Assembly: GCA_024958795.1 (NCBI GenBank)
Contig: JANXHP010000114.1
Coordinates: 1-33,039, forward strand
Source: Candidatus Poseidoniaceae archaeon
Lineage (GTDB): Archaea > Thermoplasmatota > Poseidoniia > Poseidoniales > Poseidoniaceae
Length of the DNA stretch: 33,039 nucleotides
Direction: 5' to 3'
The notes under the pieces were generated by a model, which did no database searches, had not been told where the DNA came from, and saw nothing but the letters and a program-made list of their open reading frames with translations. Position 1 is the first letter of the stretch. The number at the start of each line of letters is the position of its first letter. Of the stretch, positions 14,048 to 22,753 are shown one piece after another. Both the position numbers and the translations under genes were made by a program.

Positions 14048-14959
14048 TCATTCAATTCCAGATAACAAAGTTACCACTCTAATCGAGTCGTGTAAATCTT
14101 CACTTACTCTCGCACCCAGAATAACTTGTGCATCAACATCCAATGCAGCAGTAAACAAACTTGCAACAGTTTCAACTTGGCCAATCGTCATTCCTTGGCC
14201 GCCTTCTATTTGGATAAGACACCCTTTTGCACCCCCTACATCTAATTCTGCCAAGGGAGCCATCATAGCAGAATTCAATATTTCTTCAGGTTCATCAGCA
14301 CGTCCAACACCGACTAGCATAGTCGCACCTCCTTCAGCATCAACGATTGCCCTCAAGTCCATTAAATCCAAATTTATTAATCCCATTCGTAGCAAAGTCC
14401 TAACCAATCCATCTACTAAATCTTCTATCCATTCAGCACCCATTTGCCATGCTGTTCCCTTTTCCCTTGCTTGTCTTGCAAGTCTTTCAAGTGATAATTG
14501 AACTGTAATGTGTGCATTATGTTGTAGACGTTCAAGACCTTCCTCTGCTATTTTTGCTCGCGTTTCTTGAACTGGAAATGGTAATGCTGCTACTGAAAGA
14601 ACTACAGCCCCAGATTGCCTTGCTTGTCGAGCAAACTCGTGCCCTGCACCTGTTCCAGAACCACCGCCAAGTCCAACCAATAATACCACTAATTCTACAT
14701 CTTCTAAAATTGTTCTAGCCAAAGGTGCTAGCCCTCTCATTCTTTGTTCAGCCAAAGGAGGTAATGCTGCACAACCTACTGAATCCAATGTATGACCCAA
14801 TCGTAATACATGAGCCGATTCACAGCCAGTTAAACTCGAATCATCTGCATCAATAAGAAGTACATCTGCCCCTCTGTCACACTTTTCATATGCTCTTTTT
14901 GCCCAAGCACAACCTAATCCACCAACTCCGGCAATTAGGATTTGTGAGGCCTCCATCAT
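14048..14959 (-). CDS. Divergent FtsZ/tubulin-family GTPase
   Basis: 303 residues from the ATG at 14959. The N-terminus has the GTP-binding loop GVGGLG (residues 11-16), the tubulin signature loop reads GGGSGTG (98-104; usual FtsZ GGGTGTG), and the T7 loop is INLDLMD with the N-x-D-x-x-D catalytic pattern (N196, D198, D201). After it comes a typical G-ATMLVGVGRA strand. The protein is shorter than most FtsZ and has no C-terminal tail for partner binding. With both the nucleotide site and T7 loop kept, it may polymerise and hydrolyse GTP, perhaps in division or cell shape, but it is clearly not a standard FtsZ1. An upstream in-frame TTG at 14983 is possible. A TPR-protein gene lies 56 bases upstream and is probably co-transcribed. 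Confidence 0.8.
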   Translation of the reverse strand: MMEASQILIAGVGGLGCAWAKRAYEKCDRGADVLLIDADDSSLTGCESAHVLRLGHTLDSVGCAALPPLAEQRMRGLAPLARTILEDVELVVLLVGLGGGSGTGAGHEFARQARQSGAVVLSVAALPFPVQETRAKIAEEGLERLQHNAHITVQLSLERLARQAREKGTAWQMGAEWIEDLVDGLVRTLLRMGLINLDLMDLRAIVDAEGGATMLVGVGRADEPEEILNSAMMAPLAELDVGGAKGCLIQIEGGQGMTIGQVETVASLFTAALDVDAQVILGARVSEDLHDSIRVVTLLSGIE

Positions 14960-15015
14960 CCTAATGGCGGCGTTGAACCTCAATGAACTTTGGCTGTACC
15001 AATATTGTCCGAGTT

Positions 15016-15549: not shown

Positions 15550-16365
15550 ATGCGAGTTGGCTCTTTTTCTATGAGAACTGCACTTCTTCTAGGACTGGTC
15601 GCGCTGTTACTACTTCCAAGCATTGCTACATCATATCACACCGGTATTGGTGGCGAACAAAGCAATGCTGGCGAGACTATTGATGATGTTGCAAAACAGG
15701 GATGTTTATGCCACAATGGTGCTGCAGATAATTCAGTTCAAGTGATCCTTGACAAAGTTCCTTATGCTTGGAACGCTGGTGAGACCTATGAATTCCATTT
15801 ACAACTAATTGGAGGTCCTGAAGGTGGAACTTACACTGCTGGATTCTCAATGCTTACTAGTGCTGGAGAACTTGCTGGAACAGATTTACAGAATTGGAAA
15901 GAAAATTCTACAACGCTCACTCACACCGACGCATCTGCAAGCCAAGATGACCGTTCATGGCTACTAACATGGACTGCACCTGCTGCTGGTGAAGGAAGTG
16001 TTAATTTTTGGATTACTGGCAATTCAGTTTCTGGTGATGGAATCCCTGGTGAAGACGATAAATGGAATCAACTATTATTCGCACTTCCTGAAGGAGATGC
16101 AGATAGTATCGCCATGGGAACAAGAACATTATTCGCCGGTGATGGCAATGTAAGCCCACCTGAACCTGTTTCTCATGGAGTGGACTTACATCACATGGGT
16201 GCTGCACTTAGAGCGCATTGGCTTGGCCTTCTCGGTTTTAGCGCTGTTATCAGTGTAATTATTTTCTCAGGAATATTGCTAAGATATGGTTTCTCAACAT
16301 CATACACTGGACGTAGCAATGTATTGCGACTTCGCTACAAGTTGATGAGAAGAGGTGATCAATGA
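15550..16365 (+). CDS. Exported, membrane-anchored Reeler/choice-of-anchor-like protein with CxCH motif
   Basis: 271 residues from the ATG at 15550, which follows GGTGTGACT; an in-frame ATG at 15502 would add 16 residues. A signal peptide covers about 1-28 (MRTALLLGLVALLLLPSIATS). Next comes YHTGIGG and QGCLCHNG (C52, C54, H55), then a beta-sandwich region of about 150 residues (AGETYEFHLQL, AGFSMLTSAGELA, WLLTWTAPAAGEGSVNFWI) resembling Reeler or choice-of-anchor domains. A C-terminal helix (about 222-245) and a basic tail anchor it, facing outward. Relatives often carry a CxxCH-like motif; this one has CxCH. It opens the Rieske/cytochrome b operon, overlapping the next gene by ATGA, so a role at the outer face of that complex is likely, but heme binding is unproven. 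Confidence 0.7.
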   Translation: MRVGSFSMRTALLLGLVALLLLPSIATSYHTGIGGEQSNAGETIDDVAKQGCLCHNGAADNSVQVILDKVPYAWNAGETYEFHLQLIGGPEGGTYTAGFSMLTSAGELAGTDLQNWKENSTTLTHTDASASQDDRSWLLTWTAPAAGEGSVNFWITGNSVSGDGIPGEDDKWNQLLFALPEGDADSIAMGTRTLFAGDGNVSPPEPVSHGVDLHHMGAALRAHWLGLLGFSAVISVIIFSGILLRYGFSTSYTGRSNVLRLRYKLMRRGDQ

Positions 16366-16808
16366 TGGATGATACAATCACCACATTATTACGAGGTGTT
16401 GCAAAGGGAAGCATCAGCATTGATGATGCACGAACTGCTTTGCAAAACGCTTCTCTAACCGAAGACCAAATGCAAAAAGCAATCGATCATGGTGTTTTCA
16501 ATCCCGCAGAACCGGGCTCAATTATTAGTGCTACATTGGCACCATCAGGCGCATCAAATTTGGTAATGTTTTTCTTCGTATGGGGATTATTTTGGACTTG
16601 TTATTGGTCGTTTTCTATGATGTATGGATTGTTTAAACATTGGGACCAACAACAGTTATCATTCCATCTAGCAATGACACTCACGACCATCACACTGATG
16701 GGAATTATCTATCTTAAGTATGTCCTGCCTGACACTATTATCGTCAAGTATGCTAGAAACAAGTTCGTACCTGAACATCAAAAGGATTGGAAGGAGTACA
16801 ACTGGTGA
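16362..16808 (+). CDS. Two-helix membrane protein of the respiratory operon
   Basis: 148 residues. The first 60 residues are soluble and helical (TTLLRGVAKGSISIDDARTAL), followed by two hydrophobic helices at about 66-87 and 98-118 and a basic C-terminal tail. The ATG overlaps the preceding stop and follows GAGGTGATCA. I do not recognise the family and see no heme- or metal-binding motif. Its place between the CxCH protein and the Rieske protein suggests a small structural or assembly subunit of the complex. Confidence 0.7.
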   Translation: MMDDTITTLLRGVAKGSISIDDARTALQNASLTEDQMQKAIDHGVFNPAEPGSIISATLAPSGASNLVMFFFVWGLFWTCYWSFSMMYGLFKHWDQQQLSFHLAMTLTTITLMGIIYLKYVLPDTIIVKYARNKFVPEHQKDWKEYNW

Positions 16809-16813
16809 TTATT

Positions 16814-17662
16814 ATGTCTCGTGAATATGATCTCAAACCCGCACCAAGTGATGGGAAATCTTCTGCTAATGCAGTTGGTAATTCGTTAATCAATAGACGA
16901 CAATTCCTAAGTTATGGATTCAATACTGCTACGGGAGTATTAGCCGCTTCTTTGGGAGTTCTTGGCTTTGCATCCCTTATTCTACCTCCTGGCGGCAGCG
17001 GTGGTGGAGACCTTGCTGCAAAGTATTGGGCTAAAGGTCGTGAAGATGAAGCATGGTATGGTGCAATGCATGAACAGGTGATGAAGAAGTCGGATTTCGT
17101 TGCTGAAGCTGCTAAGAGTTCAACTGGTACATCAGGAGCTGCTGGTGTATGGAATGGAGTTCCGATTGTAGTCACATATGTTGACCACTCAAAGAATGCA
17201 GGTAGCCCTGTTTCCAATGGTAAAGCGAGATTCCAATTCATGGATGGCTATGATGGAACTGGAAAATATGTCGGTCATTTTGAGGACTTATCTGATGTTG
17301 ATCCAAGATTATTACCTAATGATAATTTGGTAATGATTTTTGCAAGGTGTACACATTTGTGCTGCATTCCGGGGTGGCAATTAGTTTCTAACTCTTATAC
17401 AGAAGATACATGGACTCCTGGTGGAGGCGATGGGGGTGGAACTAAATTGTTCTGTATTTGTCATTCATCTCGTTTTGACCCTACTGCTTTGGAAATGAAT
17501 ACAAATACAAATCGTTCCAACGGTTCTAAATTTAATTATGCTGGAATTCGTAGAGCTGGTGGACCTGCCCCTGTAGGATTACCGATTATTCCAATCGCTA
17601 TGAATGGCGATATCATTGAGGGATTACCAGATTATGTGGATTGGTACACATATTGCGATTGA
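16814..17662 (+). CDS. Rieske [2Fe-2S] protein with Tat-type signal anchor
   Basis: 282 residues from the ATG at 16814, preceded by GGTGATTATT. RRQFL at 28-32 followed by a hydrophobic stretch is a twin-arginine signal, probably uncleaved as a membrane anchor. Cluster box I is CTHLCC (179-184) and box II is CICHSS (214-219). Together they supply the two Cys and two His cluster ligands (C179, H181, C214, H217) and the disulfide pair (C184, C216). Box I normally reads CTHLGC; here the glycine is a third cysteine (C183). A glycine-rich loop TPGGGDGGGT lies just before box II. The protein would accept the first electron from quinol at the Qo site of the cytochrome b encoded next. No cytochrome c1 gene is nearby. 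Confidence 0.92.
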   Translation: MSREYDLKPAPSDGKSSANAVGNSLINRRQFLSYGFNTATGVLAASLGVLGFASLILPPGGSGGGDLAAKYWAKGREDEAWYGAMHEQVMKKSDFVAEAAKSSTGTSGAAGVWNGVPIVVTYVDHSKNAGSPVSNGKARFQFMDGYDGTGKYVGHFEDLSDVDPRLLPNDNLVMIFARCTHLCCIPGWQLVSNSYTEDTWTPGGGDGGGTKLFCICHSSRFDPTALEMNTNTNRSNGSKFNYAGIRRAGGPAPVGLPIIPIAMNGDIIEGLPDYVDWYTYCD

Positions 17663-17673
17663 GGTGAAATGAA

Positions 17674-18540
17674 ATGACTACAATGTTTTGGATTCTTTGG
17701 TTCTTCATCGCTTTCGTAGTGGTACTTGTTGCATTCACTCTGCGTAAGGAATCAGAGGATATGCCTCGCAGAGATATTCTGCGCGCTGTTGAGTCAACTG
17801 GGAAAATGGGAGTGGCTGAAAGGTCTTTCCTTTGGGTATTTTCATGGCTTGATACTAGATTTAGATTACAAGATTATTGGAATATGTCGAAAGGTGCTTA
17901 CTACAATATGCATCGCCAAATGCCACTTACACACGCAGAAAAATACAAGTTGAGAATCATATGGTACTGGTATCCACTATACTGCCTAGGTGGAATCTCA
18001 TTCCTTGCATTTATTATTTTAGTGATTACTGGAACTGTTCTTGGAATTTTTTATGTCCCAGGTGGAGAGGGTGATCCTTCTCCAGCATACGCTAGTATGC
18101 AATATATCATGACTGAATTACCATTCGGATATATTCTTCGAGCAGTTCACCACTGGGCAACTCACTTCATGGTAGCGAGCGTATTCTTACATATGTGCAG
18201 AGTATACTTTACTGGTGCATATAGAAACCCTAGAGAGTTAAACTGGCTTATCGGAGTCGCACTAATGTTCCTAACTATCTTCTTTGGTTATTCTGGATAT
18301 CTTCTACCTTGGGACTCATTAGCATATGGTGCCGCTGTTATCGGAATTAACATGGCAAACTCATCACCATTGATTGGAAAGTTTGCTGCAACAGCATTGT
18401 TTTCGGGTACATCTCTAACCCCAAGAACTGTTACAAGAATGTATTTTATTCACGTATTTATTCTACCTGTGATTGTGACATTACTAATCATTATTCACTT
18501 GTTTATTGTATGGGTGCAAGGCATCGCGGAGCCACATTGA
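17674..18540 (+). CDS. Cytochrome b6-like protein (N-terminal half of cytochrome b)
   Basis: 288 residues. Four heme-ligand histidines are clear: H159 and H173, and H260 and H275, spaced 14 and 15, which is the b6f-type spacing. The sequence follows chloroplast and bacterial b6 closely: PLYCLGGISF, VHHWATHFM, LHMCRVYFTGAYRNPRELNW, SGYLLPWD and RMYFIHVFILP. C104 in YCLGG falls on the cysteine that holds heme c(n/i) in cytochrome b6. An extra N-terminal helix (about 4-22) and a 65-residue soluble segment precede the core, so there are five helices. The start has GAGGTGA before it, 11 bases after the Rieske stop. The C-terminal half of cytochrome b is in the next gene. Confidence 0.93.
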   Translation: MTTMFWILWFFIAFVVVLVAFTLRKESEDMPRRDILRAVESTGKMGVAERSFLWVFSWLDTRFRLQDYWNMSKGAYYNMHRQMPLTHAEKYKLRIIWYWYPLYCLGGISFLAFIILVITGTVLGIFYVPGGEGDPSPAYASMQYIMTELPFGYILRAVHHWATHFMVASVFLHMCRVYFTGAYRNPRELNWLIGVALMFLTIFFGYSGYLLPWDSLAYGAAVIGINMANSSPLIGKFAATALFSGTSLTPRTVTRMYFIHVFILPVIVTLLIIIHLFIVWVQGIAEPH

Positions 18541-18557
18541 TATTGGAGGGTTAAGTT

Positions 18558-21371
18558 ATGGGATTAGTAGAAAACCTTGGAAGAGTCGCTTCCACCTATA
18601 TGGATGAGAAGGAAAACTTGCAAAGTGCTAGCACGAAAAGAAAGCGCACACCAATGGGTCATGCTTTTTGGCCTCACGAAGTTCTTCGTGATGCACTAAT
18701 CTTTTCATTCATGACCGCAGTATTGCTGTTCTATTCATGGATTATTCCTCCTCCATTGCATAGTGCTGCTGACCCATATGCTCAAGCTGGATTCGTGTTC
18801 CCTGATTGGTATGTACTATTCTCATATGGATATCTTCGCTGGGGAGAATATTTGCCGCAATTCTCTGTACCTACAGGATTTGTTGGCGACATAGTCGGAC
18901 AGCCTGTTTTCCCTTGGAACGCTGCATGGTGGGGAGCAGCACTCACTGGAATCCCAGTAGGTATTCTAACACTACCACCAATGCTTGGTGGTCGTGAAAA
19001 GAGACCGGTTGAAGACCCCTGGTTTGCCAGCGCTGGTGTAGTTTATCTTGCACATATATGGTTCATTTCGGTATTTTCGATTAATATATTCTTACAGTTA
19101 TATAGCACTAATAGGTCGGACTTTTGTAAATTAGATTCGCATGGGGACCTATTATGTGGTGTTAGAGAACCCTGGATTGCAGATGCATTCAATGCTATAC
19201 CCTGGGTATTAACTGGAATTCTAATATGGATTATCATTTATTTTGTTACTAGATCAATAATGGTTAAGGCATGGGGTGCTGGATTCACACCTGCACATGG
19301 TAAGAGAATAATTGTTGGAGCATTAATGGTTTCAACTGCAATCTCGGTTTCAACTTGGGATGTTTATGACGATGGTTTCTGGGATGCAAAGGGATTGTTA
19401 ACTATTGCTGATTATGGTGAACTTGAAGAGATGAGAACACAACCAGTTGATGTACATGTTCATTCTGCTAACGAATTTACTGACACACAAGGATGGTCGG
19501 ACACAGGTATTGTTCCAACCACTGCATGGCTTGATTGGAATCTGTATCAACCCGCTAGATATATTATTACTGATTTTGGAGATGCAAATGGGCATCAAGA
19601 TGCTGCTAATGGAATAAATGCTGCATCGGTTGCAGATACATTCTCAGGAGATACAGAATGGGTTGCCACAGGATCATTCACAATTACTGAAGATTCAACT
19701 CATTTCCCTGAAGGACACCACAAGACTGTTGAGACCATTACTACTGATATTGCTTGTGAATACCGAGCTAGTGAAAGAAAAATCAATGAAATGTCTACTA
19801 CTGATATGCTAAGTTCAACACTTGTAGTTACCGATTCATCAGGAAAGACTGTTTCTTCATTCACTGAATGTGATGGAGCAACCGTTGAACTCAAAGTAGG
19901 GACATATGACTACCAAATGACTGTGCAAGCATCTGGTTTACTTGCCCTAAATTCATCTATTACAACTGAAACTGCAATGAAGATTTCTGCCTTCCAGCCA
20001 CTATTGGTATGGAATGATGATGCCCCAGCTAGTCTTGTAGGAACGAGTGTCAATCTATCAAACTCTGAAGAGATGGTCCTTGGAAATGGTAAGTTCTCCT
20101 CAATAGAGAATCCATCATATCACAGGAATCCAAAGTCATTGGATGCAAAATTAACCTATGCTATGTTTATTCCATGTCTAACATTTGGCGCTCTTGTATT
20201 TGTAGTGCTGAGATATATGGCTCGTGGATATGAGTTTGAGATGAACAAGTGTTACGGCTGTGACCTTTGTGATGATGCTTGTCCTGTTCGCCTATTTACA
20301 GGTGGAGATAAATTGAACATTATTTACAACTCTTGGAATAATGAAGATGATGGTGTTCCAATGTATTCATGTTTGACTTGTACTGCTTGTACTAACGCCT
20401 GTCCACAACTTGTTGATTATGACTCATATGTTGATATCAGACGTGGACTAATAGTTGGTGCATCTCAAGCTGAGATTCCTCACACTGTGCTTCAAGCAGT
20501 TCTTGCTGCTGAAGCAGAGGAAGAAGCAGATGCAGACTTTATTGCTACAGAAGATTATCCAATCAATTCAAAGGTTGGATACTATCCTGGCTGTGTTGAT
20601 TATCTTGACCAAGAAATGGTATTCTCTCATGTTAATGATGGCGAGATGAACTTAGGAGATTCAACTACTGCTGCTTTCACTTTGTTTGAAGAGATGGGTA
20701 ATGAAGTCTCATATCTTGGAAGAGATTTCCTAAAGTGCTGTGGTCATGACCAAAAGTGGCAAGGCCTTGATGAAGTATTTGACAAGTTGAAGGCATATAA
20801 CCAACGCAAGATTGAGGAATCTGGAATCGATACTCTTGTTTCTTCTTGTGCTGAATGTTTCAGAACATTTGCTCGTGATTATGAACTTGAAGGTGTTAAG
20901 GTAATGCATACTACAGAGTATCTAATAGAGCAAGGATTTGATATGAACTTAAGTGCTGATGAAACTACTGTAACCTATCATGACCCATGTAGACTTGGAC
21001 GTCAAATGGGAGTCTATGATGAACCTCGAGAATTGATTAATGCAGTTGAGGGTGTTAATTTAGTTGAGATGGAACACAGTGGAGAAGATGCAATGTGTTG
21101 TGGTGTTTCTAGCATGATGTCTTGTAATGAAAACGCTCGCTCTCTTCGTGTATCTCGCATGGAAGAAATAAGGGCAACTGGAGCCGATACAATGATCACA
21201 TCGTGTCCAAAGTGTGTTACTCACTTTGAATGTTTGAAGTTTGAAGGAGATGAAAAGTATGCAGATATTGAAATTCTGGATGTCGTTTCATTCTTAGCAA
21301 GACAAGTTGAGGCAAAGAAAGCAGAAGCAGTTTCAACTACTGTTGAGATACAGAATCCAATCGAAGCTTGA
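18558..21371 (+). CDS. Fusion: cytochrome b C-terminal half (subunit IV-like) plus exported domain plus HdrD-like Fe-S/CCG module
   Basis: 937 residues. Residues 40-270 are a subunit IV-like membrane part with about five helices and the Qo motif PDWY (82-85; usual PEWY). Residues 270-528 are a soluble domain, predicted outside the membrane. A sixth helix (about 530-552) returns the chain to the cytoplasm. Then come two [4Fe-4S] motifs (C565/C568/C571/C575 and C605/C608/C611/C615, both ending in CP) and two CCG domains: C679, CCG 727-729, C764/C767; and C811, CCG 847-849, C883/C886. This order is that of HdrD, GlpC and related disulfide or quinone oxidoreductases. It probably links quinol oxidation at the Rieske/b complex to a cytoplasmic redox partner. 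The reading frame is unbroken, so this is a real fusion in this sequence. The start follows GGAGG. Confidence 0.9.
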   Translation: MGLVENLGRVASTYMDEKENLQSASTKRKRTPMGHAFWPHEVLRDALIFSFMTAVLLFYSWIIPPPLHSAADPYAQAGFVFPDWYVLFSYGYLRWGEYLPQFSVPTGFVGDIVGQPVFPWNAAWWGAALTGIPVGILTLPPMLGGREKRPVEDPWFASAGVVYLAHIWFISVFSINIFLQLYSTNRSDFCKLDSHGDLLCGVREPWIADAFNAIPWVLTGILIWIIIYFVTRSIMVKAWGAGFTPAHGKRIIVGALMVSTAISVSTWDVYDDGFWDAKGLLTIADYGELEEMRTQPVDVHVHSANEFTDTQGWSDTGIVPTTAWLDWNLYQPARYIITDFGDANGHQDAANGINAASVADTFSGDTEWVATGSFTITEDSTHFPEGHHKTVETITTDIACEYRASERKINEMSTTDMLSSTLVVTDSSGKTVSSFTECDGATVELKVGTYDYQMTVQASGLLALNSSITTETAMKISAFQPLLVWNDDAPASLVGTSVNLSNSEEMVLGNGKFSSIENPSYHRNPKSLDAKLTYAMFIPCLTFGALVFVVLRYMARGYEFEMNKCYGCDLCDDACPVRLFTGGDKLNIIYNSWNNEDDGVPMYSCLTCTACTNACPQLVDYDSYVDIRRGLIVGASQAEIPHTVLQAVLAAEAEEEADADFIATEDYPINSKVGYYPGCVDYLDQEMVFSHVNDGEMNLGDSTTAAFTLFEEMGNEVSYLGRDFLKCCGHDQKWQGLDEVFDKLKAYNQRKIEESGIDTLVSSCAECFRTFARDYELEGVKVMHTTEYLIEQGFDMNLSADETTVTYHDPCRLGRQMGVYDEPRELINAVEGVNLVEMEHSGEDAMCCGVSSMMSCNENARSLRVSRMEEIRATGADTMITSCPKCVTHFECLKFEGDEKYADIEILDVVSFLARQVEAKKAEAVSTTVEIQNPIEA

Positions 21372-21416: not shown

Positions 21417-22112
21417 GTGCTGATGCTAGCGCCATTCATGAACAGACCTGCATTGTATGTACTTACAATAGGCATTGGTTTGTACATCAGTGCTACTGGA
21501 TTAAATGGAATAATTCCAGACCATCTTTCAGAATGGCCAGTCAATATTTGGTGTTGGTCTGTTTTTGCATATATTTTCTCCCAGACCAATAGAAAAGAAC
21601 GAATTGAAATGCTGACTGTATTGGCTATTGCTACTCCGATGGAACTATTCTTCAGTGAAGTATGGCTAATCTATGAATACCAACGTGGCTTAATGCCCCT
21701 ATTCGTTCCAGTTGGACATTACTTCCTATTTGATTTGGGCAGAATTATTGCTAACAATATGCGGGAAAACCTTGCCATGATCTCTTTGACTCCTTTTATC
21801 CCATTAGTTGCTTATGGAGTATATAGTGGAGGTGATACTTCCGCTTTATTCCTCCTAATACTCGTACTGGCATTCACAAATTGGGGACCACAACCGAGAT
21901 TGTATGCAGCAATGGCTTGGGCAGCCTTAGTAATGGAATTGTGGGGTACATATCTAGCCAATTGGACTTGGGCTAATGAGGTTCCATGGACAGGACTAAC
22001 CGCATGGAATCCACCTCTTTTGGTTGGCGCATTCTATTGTATTGGAGATTTATTGGTCAACCTAAGTGTTGCCAAGTTTGAAAGAGAAGTGACGAACGAG
22101 GTGGTAGTATGA
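21417..22112 (+). CDS. Polytopic membrane protein of the respiratory operon, unknown
   Basis: About 231 residues from the GTG at 21417; an ATG two codons on (21423) or at 21438 could also be the start. Six to seven hydrophobic helices are visible, with polar motifs between them such as EVWLIYEYQRG, VPVGHYFLFDLGR and TNWGPQPRLY. The glutamate-, tyrosine- and histidine-containing loops could bind a cofactor or quinone, but I do not recognise the family. It overlaps the following ferredoxin gene by four bases (ATGA), so the two are likely to be translated together and to work in the same complex. Confidence 0.7.
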   Translation: MLMLAPFMNRPALYVLTIGIGLYISATGLNGIIPDHLSEWPVNIWCWSVFAYIFSQTNRKERIEMLTVLAIATPMELFFSEVWLIYEYQRGLMPLFVPVGHYFLFDLGRIIANNMRENLAMISLTPFIPLVAYGVYSGGDTSALFLLILVLAFTNWGPQPRLYAAMAWAALVMELWGTYLANWTWANEVPWTGLTAWNPPLLVGAFYCIGDLLVNLSVAKFEREVTNEVVV

Positions 22113-22441
22113 CCACCAGTGACGAGTTGGCAAAGAGGCGGGCGGCTGAAGCGTTAGCTATCCGCACCTCTCTAAACCGTCAGCGTGGAGAACAGCGTGC
22201 TAATACAAAAGGTGGAGAAGGAACCGTAGCATATGTCACTGCAGAGAAATGTATTGGCTGTGATCAATGTACAATCGTCTGTGACGATGATGCAATCGAA
22301 TTATACAAGGTTGAGATGTTAAGTCAATTTATCAAAGTAGAAAGCAATCGCAAGGCCAAAATAATCCGAGATGCATGTACTGGTTGTAGATTATGCGTAC
22401 TCGCTTGCCCTACCGATGCGATAACAATGATAGATTTGTGA
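22109..22441 (+). CDS. 2x[4Fe-4S] ferredoxin-like protein
   Basis: 110 residues. The first 45 are charged and helical (many Arg, Ala and Glu). Two cluster motifs follow: C48/C51/C54/C58, and C90/C93/C96/C100 with the usual CP ending (ACPTDA). In the first motif the residue after the last cysteine is Asp instead of Pro. The insertion between the motifs is longer than in small bacterial ferredoxins. There is no signal peptide, so it should work in the cytoplasm, the same side as the HdrD-like module of the fusion protein. It is the natural candidate for a soluble or peripheral electron partner of that module. The start ATG follows GAGGTGG. Confidence 0.88.
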   Translation: MTTSDELAKRRAAEALAIRTSLNRQRGEQRANTKGGEGTVAYVTAEKCIGCDQCTIVCDDDAIELYKVEMLSQFIKVESNRKAKIIRDACTGCRLCVLACPTDAITMIDL

Positions 22442-22450
22442 GTGATTATT

Positions 22451-22753
22451 ATGGTAAAAGATGAGAATTCAGATGCTCAAAGATTTGGAGGAGAATTTGG
22501 GCCATTTCGTAAGGAAGGAACCTCTGGCGTTAGTCTTGGGACATTCAAGACATTGGTATGGGTTTCCAATTTAGGTGGTCTGTTTTTGTGCGCATTATCC
22601 CTTGAAATGCTATTTGTTCGCAAAATGTTTGGTTGGGGACTATTGGCCCTAATCGCTGCAGTAGGTATCGCATTATTCCCTTCAAATTATGAAATTGTTG
22701 GAATGGGTGATGATGTAAATGATTTCATTGAAGATAAGCAGGCTCAAGACTGA
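22451..22753 (+). CDS. Small two-helix membrane protein, last gene of the respiratory operon
   Basis: 100 residues from the ATG at 22451, nine bases after the ferredoxin stop; the same GTGATTATT spacing precedes it as precedes the Rieske start. A polar N-terminus with Gly and Phe (RFGGEFGPFRKEG) is followed by two helices (TLVWVSNLGGLFLCALSLEML and GWGLLALIAAVGIALFP) and an acidic tail. No motif is recognised. It may be a small subunit of the complex. Transcription appears to end after it; the following gene has its own promoter-like element. Confidence 0.65.
   Translation: MVKDENSDAQRFGGEFGPFRKEGTSGVSLGTFKTLVWVSNLGGLFLCALSLEMLFVRKMFGWGLLALIAAVGIALFPSNYEIVGMGDDVNDFIEDKQAQD

Follow-up and report, generated by a model that had tools for sequence, protein, structure and literature searches.

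A cytochrome b6f-type subunit IV fused to an Hdr-like iron-sulfur and CCG module in Marine Group II archaea

Electron transfer between membrane-bound hemes and a cytoplasmic iron-sulfur (Fe-S) module has been proposed for two kinds of described system. In the Rieske/cytochrome b complexes of anammox bacteria, hemes b_N/c_N lie near Fe-S clusters in AlphaFold3 models (PMC12954380), and for mycobacterial EtfD, which has one b heme and five helices, a path from ETF through CCG and [4Fe-4S] clusters and heme b to menaquinone, in steps of about 7-9 Å, was proposed (PMC13083937). For Marine Group II, described as the most numerous archaea in the plankton of surface seawater (PMC8821943), complex III is on record as having "cytochrome b and Rieske but no canonical bc1", next to a puzzling lone "RnfB" with no RnfACDEG (PMC6336850). 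In this work we describe a locus in a stretch of 33,039 nucleotides (contig JANXHP010000114.1 of assembly GCA_024958795.1, Candidatus Poseidoniaceae archaeon; hereafter the window, meaning the whole stretch that was analysed), in which a subunit IV and an HdrD-like module with [4Fe-4S] motifs and CCG domains are encoded by one gene. We propose, with moderate confidence, that its product belongs to a Rieske/cytochrome b complex III in which an Hdr-type wire links the Qn site with ferredoxin or flavodoxin, the most likely direction being from ferredoxin to quinone.

The range 17674-21371, which the initial annotation had described as a cytochrome b complex fused to an HdrD-like module, comprises two genes, one for cytochrome b6 (17674-18540) and one for the 937-residue fusion protein (18558-21371); the single frame of the latter was confirmed, and the Rieske (16787-17662) and b6 genes lie upstream of it as had been stated. 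Re-reading of the window sequence also recovered the PDWY motif at residues 82-85, two [4Fe-4S] motifs of the form CX2CX2CX3CP (residues 565-576 and 605-616) and two complete CCG domains, with cysteines 679/727/728/764/767 in CCG1 and 811/847/848/883/886 in CCG2. The external domain and one more helix that had been noticed are both present, and two further helices (about residues 205-240 and 250-266), which the initial annotation did not list, precede the external domain; counted with these, the protein has its sixth membrane helix at 526-555, ahead of the Fe-S part. Pfam scans gave CCG matches in two stretches (2.5e-24) and a Fer4_8 match (2e-7). The subunit IV part of the window protein had no Pfam match of its own, and PF00032 (Cytochrom_B_C) was above the cut-off in the homologous parts of L118, L117 and L124 (L and G numbers are our handles for loci and genomes). 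A separate subunit IV with the PE/DWY-type Qo motif is recognised by PDWY in the window and by PF00032 in the homologues. Two [4Fe-4S] motifs and two five-cysteine CCG domains are the set found in HdrD/HdrBC; an HdrE-type b or HdrA partner was not found, the membrane part being a subunit IV, and an HdrA-like neighbour was seen only in CSMAG relatives. The CCG fold matched those of EtfD, LutA and HdrB. A chance open frame was ruled out, since a base-composition model of simple form, set to 41% GC, gives 937 open codons a probability of about 1e-26.

The window appears to derive from Marine Group II (Poseidoniales), and the fusion recurs within this order. The relatives of the window's genome fall into two families of one order; Marine Group III and "Poseidoniia" archaea are its neighbours at a wider level. 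Subunit IV and CCG domains share a single uninterrupted frame in 51 of the 59 order-level genomes, including G018, where the frame leaves the contig after CCG1; six rows with a counted stop were fetched and found to be open from PDWY to the last CPKC, the stop being the terminal one. Broken copies were seen in G030, which has a TGA in frame, and in G039, where one contig carries two frames that overlap; both breaks lie inside the inserted region considered below. The fusion copies of G009, G032, G040 and G042 are cut by contig ends, and no copy was found in G011 (74% complete) or G014 (57% complete). Two separate genes with a stop near codon 530, the outcome that the initial annotation had named as refuting, are not the rule, the exceptions being the single broken copies of G030 and G039; in Marine Group III the natural split lies beyond the [4Fe-4S] motifs, near residue 640. 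As the frame is common to many genomes, an assembly artefact was ruled out as the origin of the fusion. None of the Fe-S and CCG cysteines is lost in any of the 57 fusion rows (55 distinct sequences); this conservation is partly selected, since the choice of rows relied on length and on the strings PDWYVLFSY and CCG. A phylum-wide search with the fusion gave a match in at least 286 of 389 genomes; 25 of these genomes were inspected, and outside the order and class most matches were CCG proteins without subunit IV, so no fusion count was drawn from this search. One scan of viral contigs found nothing. Second short frames that match only the subunit IV end were observed in two genomes with a full fusion elsewhere, at G046:C47:2181-3092 (310 residues, corresponding to residues 1-303) and G002:C60:67150-67824 (226 residues, 1-225), and G032 has a second CCG fragment; these may represent contig ends or contamination.

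Outside Marine Group II the same parts were found in other arrangements. Species genomes were scanned with two peptide patterns derived from non-Marine-Group-II sequences, which gave 30 loci, absence elsewhere being weak evidence. Subunit IV, Fe-S part and CCG domains are fused in three loci (L099, L118 and L100, the last cut in its CCG part), and in 18 a subunit IV-Fe-S gene is followed by a separate CCG gene (17 Marine Group III-like loci and L121). Subunit IV stands alone in six (L119, L120, L122, L123, L124 and L126). The contig of L128 starts within the Fe-S part, which is followed by CCG; subunit IV of L127 ends 76 bases before the contig end; and in L117 a small membrane-protein-like open reading frame (ORF) comes after subunit IV-[4Fe-4S], the contig having no CCG and no ferredoxin. 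In at least eight Marine Group III loci the subunit IV-Fe-S and CCG genes overlap by four bases, which suggests that they are real coupled genes. In a wider survey covering 80 of 103 Thermoplasmatota genomes outside the order, subunit IV-Fe-S was detected in 9 of the 80 (six Marine Group III genomes, G084, G093 and G098) and subunit IV without Fe-S in 9 of the 80. The operon without the Fe-S module occurs in a haloarchaeon and in some Thermoplasmatota. These natural intermediates, in which the module is missing, limited to the Fe-S part, split, fused, or fused with an insertion, make the assembly of the protein readable. In the best tree of 40 b6 rows (L082-L088 left out, among them L085, a distinct genome), which has several long branches, the Fe-S-bearing rows do not form one clade and two changes are needed; a single origin of the Fe-S part, which was found in 5% of the bootstrap trees, may also account for them. 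L114 (NZTZ01000011.1), labelled as a Chloroflexi bacterium, carries the Marine Group III operon, its b6 having an end branch of 0.009 inside that group; the contig is probably mis-binned. In L121 (CSMAG_355), further hydrophobic segments lie ahead of the Fe-S part in the subunit IV-Fe-S protein at 781-2142; this insertion differs from that of Marine Group II.

The shorter relatives also inform the membrane topology. L118 (nzgw66) and L099 (CSMAG_327) are fused without the insertion and have helices E, F, G and one more before the [4Fe-4S] motifs; if PDWY faces outward, as it does in b6f, a total of four helices would place the Fe-S/CCG module inside, on the cytoplasmic Qn side. The insertion was seen in Marine Group II only; neither L118 and L099 nor the Marine Group III rows have it. 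Its two added helices amount to an even number of crossings, so the C-terminal end would still be inside in Marine Group II. The external domain has a net charge of -26 and holds the cysteine pair 400/438, the loop between helix G and transmembrane helix 5 (TM5) holds the pair 190/200, and the TM5-TM6 loop has a charge of +3. Both cysteine pairs are present in 57 of 57 fusion rows. The acidic insertion with its conserved pairs and the positive loop fit an outside and an inside location, respectively. A cytoplasmic position of the module is likely, as judged from sequence and from weak structure models.

Cytochrome b6 of the window has the four histidines at b6 spacing (159/173 and 260/275), aligned with PDB b6 chains. 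Its closest PDB sequence matches are cytochromes b6, and Cys104 aligns with the cysteine of their YCLGG stretch. We take Cys104 to be the equivalent of the cysteine of heme c_n (c_i) in b6f. This cysteine is kept in 9 of 9 Marine Group II b6 copies. Over 41 b6 rows, from which six second fetches (L082, L083, L084, L086, L087 and L088) were dropped, the position is C in 19, S in 14, A in 3, T in 3 and L in 2; C is found in none of the 8 rows without Fe-S, the other 33 including L127, whose Fe-S part is out of view. As the rows are related by descent, this distribution is a pattern and not a test. Asp45, near the expected c_n site, was considered as a heme ligand and nothing was drawn from it, as it is also present in three of six complexes without the module (L119, L120 and L122). 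Only one PF00033 cytochrome b was found in the window's genome, the assembly of which is a draft of 146 contigs and 1.88 Mb rated 87% complete. Among the CCG ligands, Cys728 is replaced by Ser in 15 of 31 cross-lineage rows and Cys767 by Gly in 4 of 31, one further row being unread at 767; the losses comprise all 18 Marine Group III rows and L121, and all lie outside the fused lineages. CCG2 has all its ligand cysteines in each of the 30 rows with data, and Glu766 is kept in 31 of 31 cross-lineage rows and in 57 of 57 fusion rows.

The dicluster ferredoxin encoded downstream is about as conserved as the fusion itself. It was found in 56 of 59 Marine Group II genomes (none in G011, G014 and G018) and in 12 of 12 further genomes, and its gene lies within 1.5 kb of the fusion or a fragment of it in 51 of the 56 and 10 of the 12, respectively; in G009 and G042 it is on another contig. 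In non-Marine-Group-II loci with a continuing contig, the CCG gene is followed by a ferredoxin, a flavodoxin-ferredoxin or an HdrA-like gene. The carrier of L118 has four Fer4 stretches (polyferredoxin), and a flavodoxin domain stands N-terminal to the ferredoxin part in L103, L106, L110, L112 and L114 (Marine Group III), perhaps as an iron-saving variant. A zinc-ferredoxin-like part precedes the ferredoxin in L102 and L116. The CSMAG carrier slot has an HdrA-like part (NF040770 2e-17, L099), and in L089 (G098 genome) a 511-residue HdrA-like/ferredoxin/MvhD-like protein is encoded at 757-2292, directly after the CCG end (MvhD/FlpD PF02662 1.4e-17). L089 is without two cysteines of one [4Fe-4S] motif, and L099 keeps them. 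The dicluster ferredoxin is likely to be the n-side electron carrier of the complex. Membership of the Rnf complex was rejected, the RnfB match being 49.9 bits against a cut-off of 68.7. From this best NCBIfam match we infer that the lone "RnfB" on record for Marine Group II is the ferredoxin of the operon, which would probably be a subunit or partner of a complex III with an Hdr-type wire.

In the proposed mechanism, helices E-G of subunit IV would carry the Qo-site PDWY and a further helix would return the polypeptide to the inner side; there, a row of clusters made up of an HdrC-like [4Fe-4S] pair and an HdrB/D-like CCG pair would lead to the partner ferredoxin (22109-22441). Ferredoxin reduced by 2-oxoacid:ferredoxin oxidoreductases would pass its electrons through CCG, [4Fe-4S] and heme c_n/b_n to quinone at Qn, and quinol oxidised at Qo would feed the Rieske branch and, through the p-side carrier of gene 1, the oxidase. 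The net role would be that of a ferredoxin (in some relatives flavodoxin):quinone reductase inside a Q-cycle enzyme, comparable to the ferredoxin input at Qn that has been proposed for b6f in cyclic flow. The physical joining of a Qo-type oxidoreductase to an Hdr-like module, as put forward in the initial annotation, gains from the conserved fusion, the topology of the shorter relatives and the co-inherited ferredoxin; the thiol/disulfide role hinted at there for the CCG domains is weakened, because a CCG1 ligand cysteine is lost in the split lineages. POR_N (2-oxoacid:ferredoxin oxidoreductase) was found in 27 of 31 Marine Group II genomes and in all 12 of high quality. A complex I NADH module was rejected as the usual electron entry, since PF01512 (NuoF) is rare (2 of 31 genomes, none of the 12 of high quality). 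The sole PF01512 match of the window's genome, L131 (G000:C58), is a NuoE- plus NuoF-like frame that adjoins a frame which, by eye, resembles a formate dehydrogenase alpha subunit.

Several points weigh against this proposal. Entry at Qn wastes much of the gap between ferredoxin and quinone, and a complex I without NuoF, oxidising ferredoxin, could save more energy. The c_n cysteine is Ser in 14 of the 41 b6 rows, all from Marine Group III, so a covalent heme c_n would be dispensable; L117, which lacks CCG and ferredoxin, indicates that the Fe-S part can occur without either. The operon argument is weakened by genomes whose ferredoxin gene is on the other strand, as in many members of the window's family, or about 14-17 kb away (G027, G019, G010, G073 and G112). 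The structure models are weak for the membrane part (mean pLDDT 54.9) and for the Fe-S part (66.9), and the authors of the anammox work favour bifurcation, calling NAD(P)H input wasteful (PMC12954380).

We consider transfer from ferredoxin to quinone to be about twice as likely as the reverse direction, in which quinol oxidation at Qo would be bifurcated, one electron going to the Rieske protein and the oxidase and the other through the b hemes, Fe-S and CCG clusters to ferredoxin or flavodoxin. This reverse wire, a possibility that we hold only tentatively, has a precedent in the bifurcation proposed for anammox Rieske/cytochrome b complexes with an n-side NAD(P) oxidoreductase, reached via Fe-S clusters near heme c_N (PMC12954380). 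Its driving force would come from the high-potential branch to oxygen, and ferredoxin, flavodoxin or HdrA-like partners could accept the electrons; however, Marine Group II already has 2-oxoacid:ferredoxin oxidoreductases, and the step from menaquinone to ferredoxin is steeper than that from menaquinone to NAD(P). If bifurcation took place, oxygen respiration in an aerobic ocean archaeon would directly yield a low-potential reductant, and quinone-based and Hdr-type electron handling would meet in one enzyme.

It is improbable that the CCG domains serve as a docking site for a dehydrogenase or flavoprotein, in the way suggested for EtfD with ETF, and thereby feed the quinone pool with the linked ferredoxin being incidental. 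Fold and sequence similarity to EtfD would agree with such docking, as would the predicted degradation of protein and fatty acids by these organisms (PMC6336850), but the window's genome has a separate EtfD-like protein (9ojn 7e-98), the ferredoxin gene is about as well conserved as the fusion, and the carrier slot itself includes a flavodoxin or HdrA-like part in some Marine Group III and in CSMAG genomes. Least likely of all is a catalytic Hdr-like disulfide/thiol reductase coupling quinol to a cytoplasmic disulfide: all ten HdrB-type cysteines are present in the Marine Group II CCG domains, including the positions of the HdrB bridging cysteines (PMC13083937; the position matching is ours), yet Marine Group III and L121 keep module and operon with CCG1 lacking Cys728 or Cys767, and a carrier gene follows the CCG gene outside Marine Group II wherever the contig continues.

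The features of the locus are listed in Table 1. The operon order on the forward strand is gene 1, a DUF7318-like gene, Rieske, cytochrome b6, the fusion, a membrane protein, the dicluster ferredoxin and a small membrane protein. Upstream, on the reverse strand, lies a gene for an FtsZ/tubulin-family GTPase at 14048-14983 (PF12327 1.8e-17, PF00091 7e-13). Pfam and NCBIfam scans detected no FAD/NAD(P) domain of the anammox n-side type in the eight operon proteins.

Table 1. Positions of the operon genes and of the parts of the fusion protein in the window.
Feature	Position	Strand	Evidence
Gene 1, "choice-of-anchor V" extracytoplasmic domain, C-terminal membrane helix	15502-16365	+	NCBIfam NF041895 4e-25
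Gene 2, small membrane protein related to haloarchaeal DUF7318	16362-16808	+	PF24002 0.006, below cut-off
Rieske protein, CTHLCC at residue 188, CICHSS at residue 223	16787-17662	+	TIGR01416 2e-9, below cut-off; motifs
Cytochrome b6, 288 residues, heme histidines 159/173 and 260/275, Cys104	17674-18540	+	PF00033 1e-40
Fusion gene, 937 residues	18558-21371	+	Open frame, only terminal stop
Subunit IV part with helices E-G and, at 18801-18812, the PDWY motif of the Qo site	18558-19112	+	PDWY motif; PF00032 in homologues
G-H loop insertion: two extra helices, acidic external domain, cysteine pairs 190/200 and 400/438	19116-20132	+	
Helix H before Fe-S part	20133-20222	+	Same position in L118, L099
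HdrC-like pair of [4Fe-4S] motifs	20250-20405	+	Pfam, alignment
CCG domain 1, five ligand cysteines	20592-20858	+	Complete in 57/57 Marine Group II rows
CCG domain 2, five ligand cysteines	20988-21215	+	Complete in 57/57 Marine Group II rows
Membrane protein, function not assigned, no family match	21417-22112	+	Counterpart in 1/16 relatives' regions (L097)
Dicluster ferredoxin, 110 residues, RnfB-like	22109-22441	+	Fer4_21 5e-14; rnfB 2.6e-13, below cut-off
Small membrane protein, accompanies ferredoxin gene in relatives	22442-22753	+	Neighbourhood comparison

Gene 2 has a syntenic counterpart in Halospeciosus flavus (2e-62). The start of the Rieske gene is uncertain, an alternative ATG being located at 16814; its CTHLCC and CICHSS stretches have the C-x-H ... 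C-x-x-H pattern, and we take them to belong to the Rieske motif class. The slot of gene 1 is presumed to hold the p-side electron acceptor of the complex, and in relatives it is occupied by plastocyanin-like proteins (L123, L124 and L126) or by a cytochrome c (L117, PF00034 1.3e-12). Gene 1 encodes CLCH (C-x-C-H) at 15703-15714; besides the window, all 8 Marine Group II rows and all 21 Marine Group III rows of gene 1 (the latter with three second fetches) have CXCH, and four further reverse-strand ORFs with weak matches are without it. Compared with a p-side cytochrome f/c1 or its substitute, the motif is CXCH and not CXXCH. PF01578 proteins of c-type cytochrome maturation were found in 31 of 31 Marine Group II genomes, in the window's genome at G000:C43:7211-7789 and C7:11527-11988; with about 850 and 245 residues they are CcmF- and CcmC-like by length. 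PF00034/PF01322 cytochromes c are reported to be absent from Thermoplasmatota (PMC9287336), which the cytochrome c of L117 may contradict. Given this reported absence and the general presence of PF01578, CXCH may be an unusual heme site, and we regard it, from sequence, as a possible candidate for a non-standard heme c or metal site.

The initial annotation knew of no described complex with this architecture, in agreement with our search of the open-access literature (supplements not covered), which turned up no description of an Hdr or CCG module in a Rieske/cytochrome b complex; there is nevertheless a functional analogue in anammox bacteria (PMC12954380). The combination is likewise not described in the accessible text of PMC6741140, PMC9287336, PMC9478090, PMC6461757, PMC13287000, PMC12808453, PMC5861303, PMC10354927 and PMC6037941, and that of an archaeal gene-fusion survey (PMC11237513) does not mention such a fusion. 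The locus offers one answer to both puzzles of Marine Group II, the non-canonical complex III and the lone RnfB, and it would be a second design, besides that of anammox bacteria, by which electrons pass between a cytoplasmic carrier and a Rieske/cytochrome b complex on its Qn side.

With chloroplast and cyanobacterial b6f the complex shares the split into b6 and subunit IV, the histidine spacing and the c_n cysteine; to our knowledge, those complexes have no Fe-S module on subunit IV and no dedicated ferredoxin gene beside it. The haloarchaeal bc operon with DUF7318 (Halospeciosus flavus, L124) has the same order of p-side carrier, DUF7318, Rieske, b6 and subunit IV, but its subunit IV is without Fe-S or CCG and it has Ala at the position of the c_n cysteine. 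RnfB is the closest NCBIfam match of the ferredoxin gene, yet below the cut-off, and the other Rnf subunits are reported to be absent from Marine Group II (PMC6336850). Mycobacterial EtfD (9ojn, PMC13083937) and HdrDE likewise combine a membrane b part with two [4Fe-4S] clusters and two CCG domains of the same fold; their membrane part, however, is another b-type protein without a Rieske partner, whereas here it is b6/subunit IV with a Qo site. The domain order of EtfD is that of the fusion, which makes EtfD a structural precedent for a wire from a cytoplasmic flavoprotein to menaquinone. By motif matching, Thr539 and His583 of EtfD correspond to Cys728 and Glu766 here, so that the fusion lacks their equivalents; Ser728 of the split lineages corresponds to Thr539, and CCG1 of EtfD holds a linear [3Fe-4S] cluster. 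The anammox complexes Kuste4569-4574 and Kustd1480-1485 (PMC12954380) likewise have Rieske/cytochrome b with b6f-like subunits, a heme c_N in the models and, on the n-side, a chain of Fe-S clusters leading to a cytoplasmic redox module, but they use separate FAD NAD(P) oxidoreductase subunits and multiheme cytochromes c, whereas in Marine Group II an Hdr/CCG module is fused to subunit IV and accompanied by a ferredoxin.

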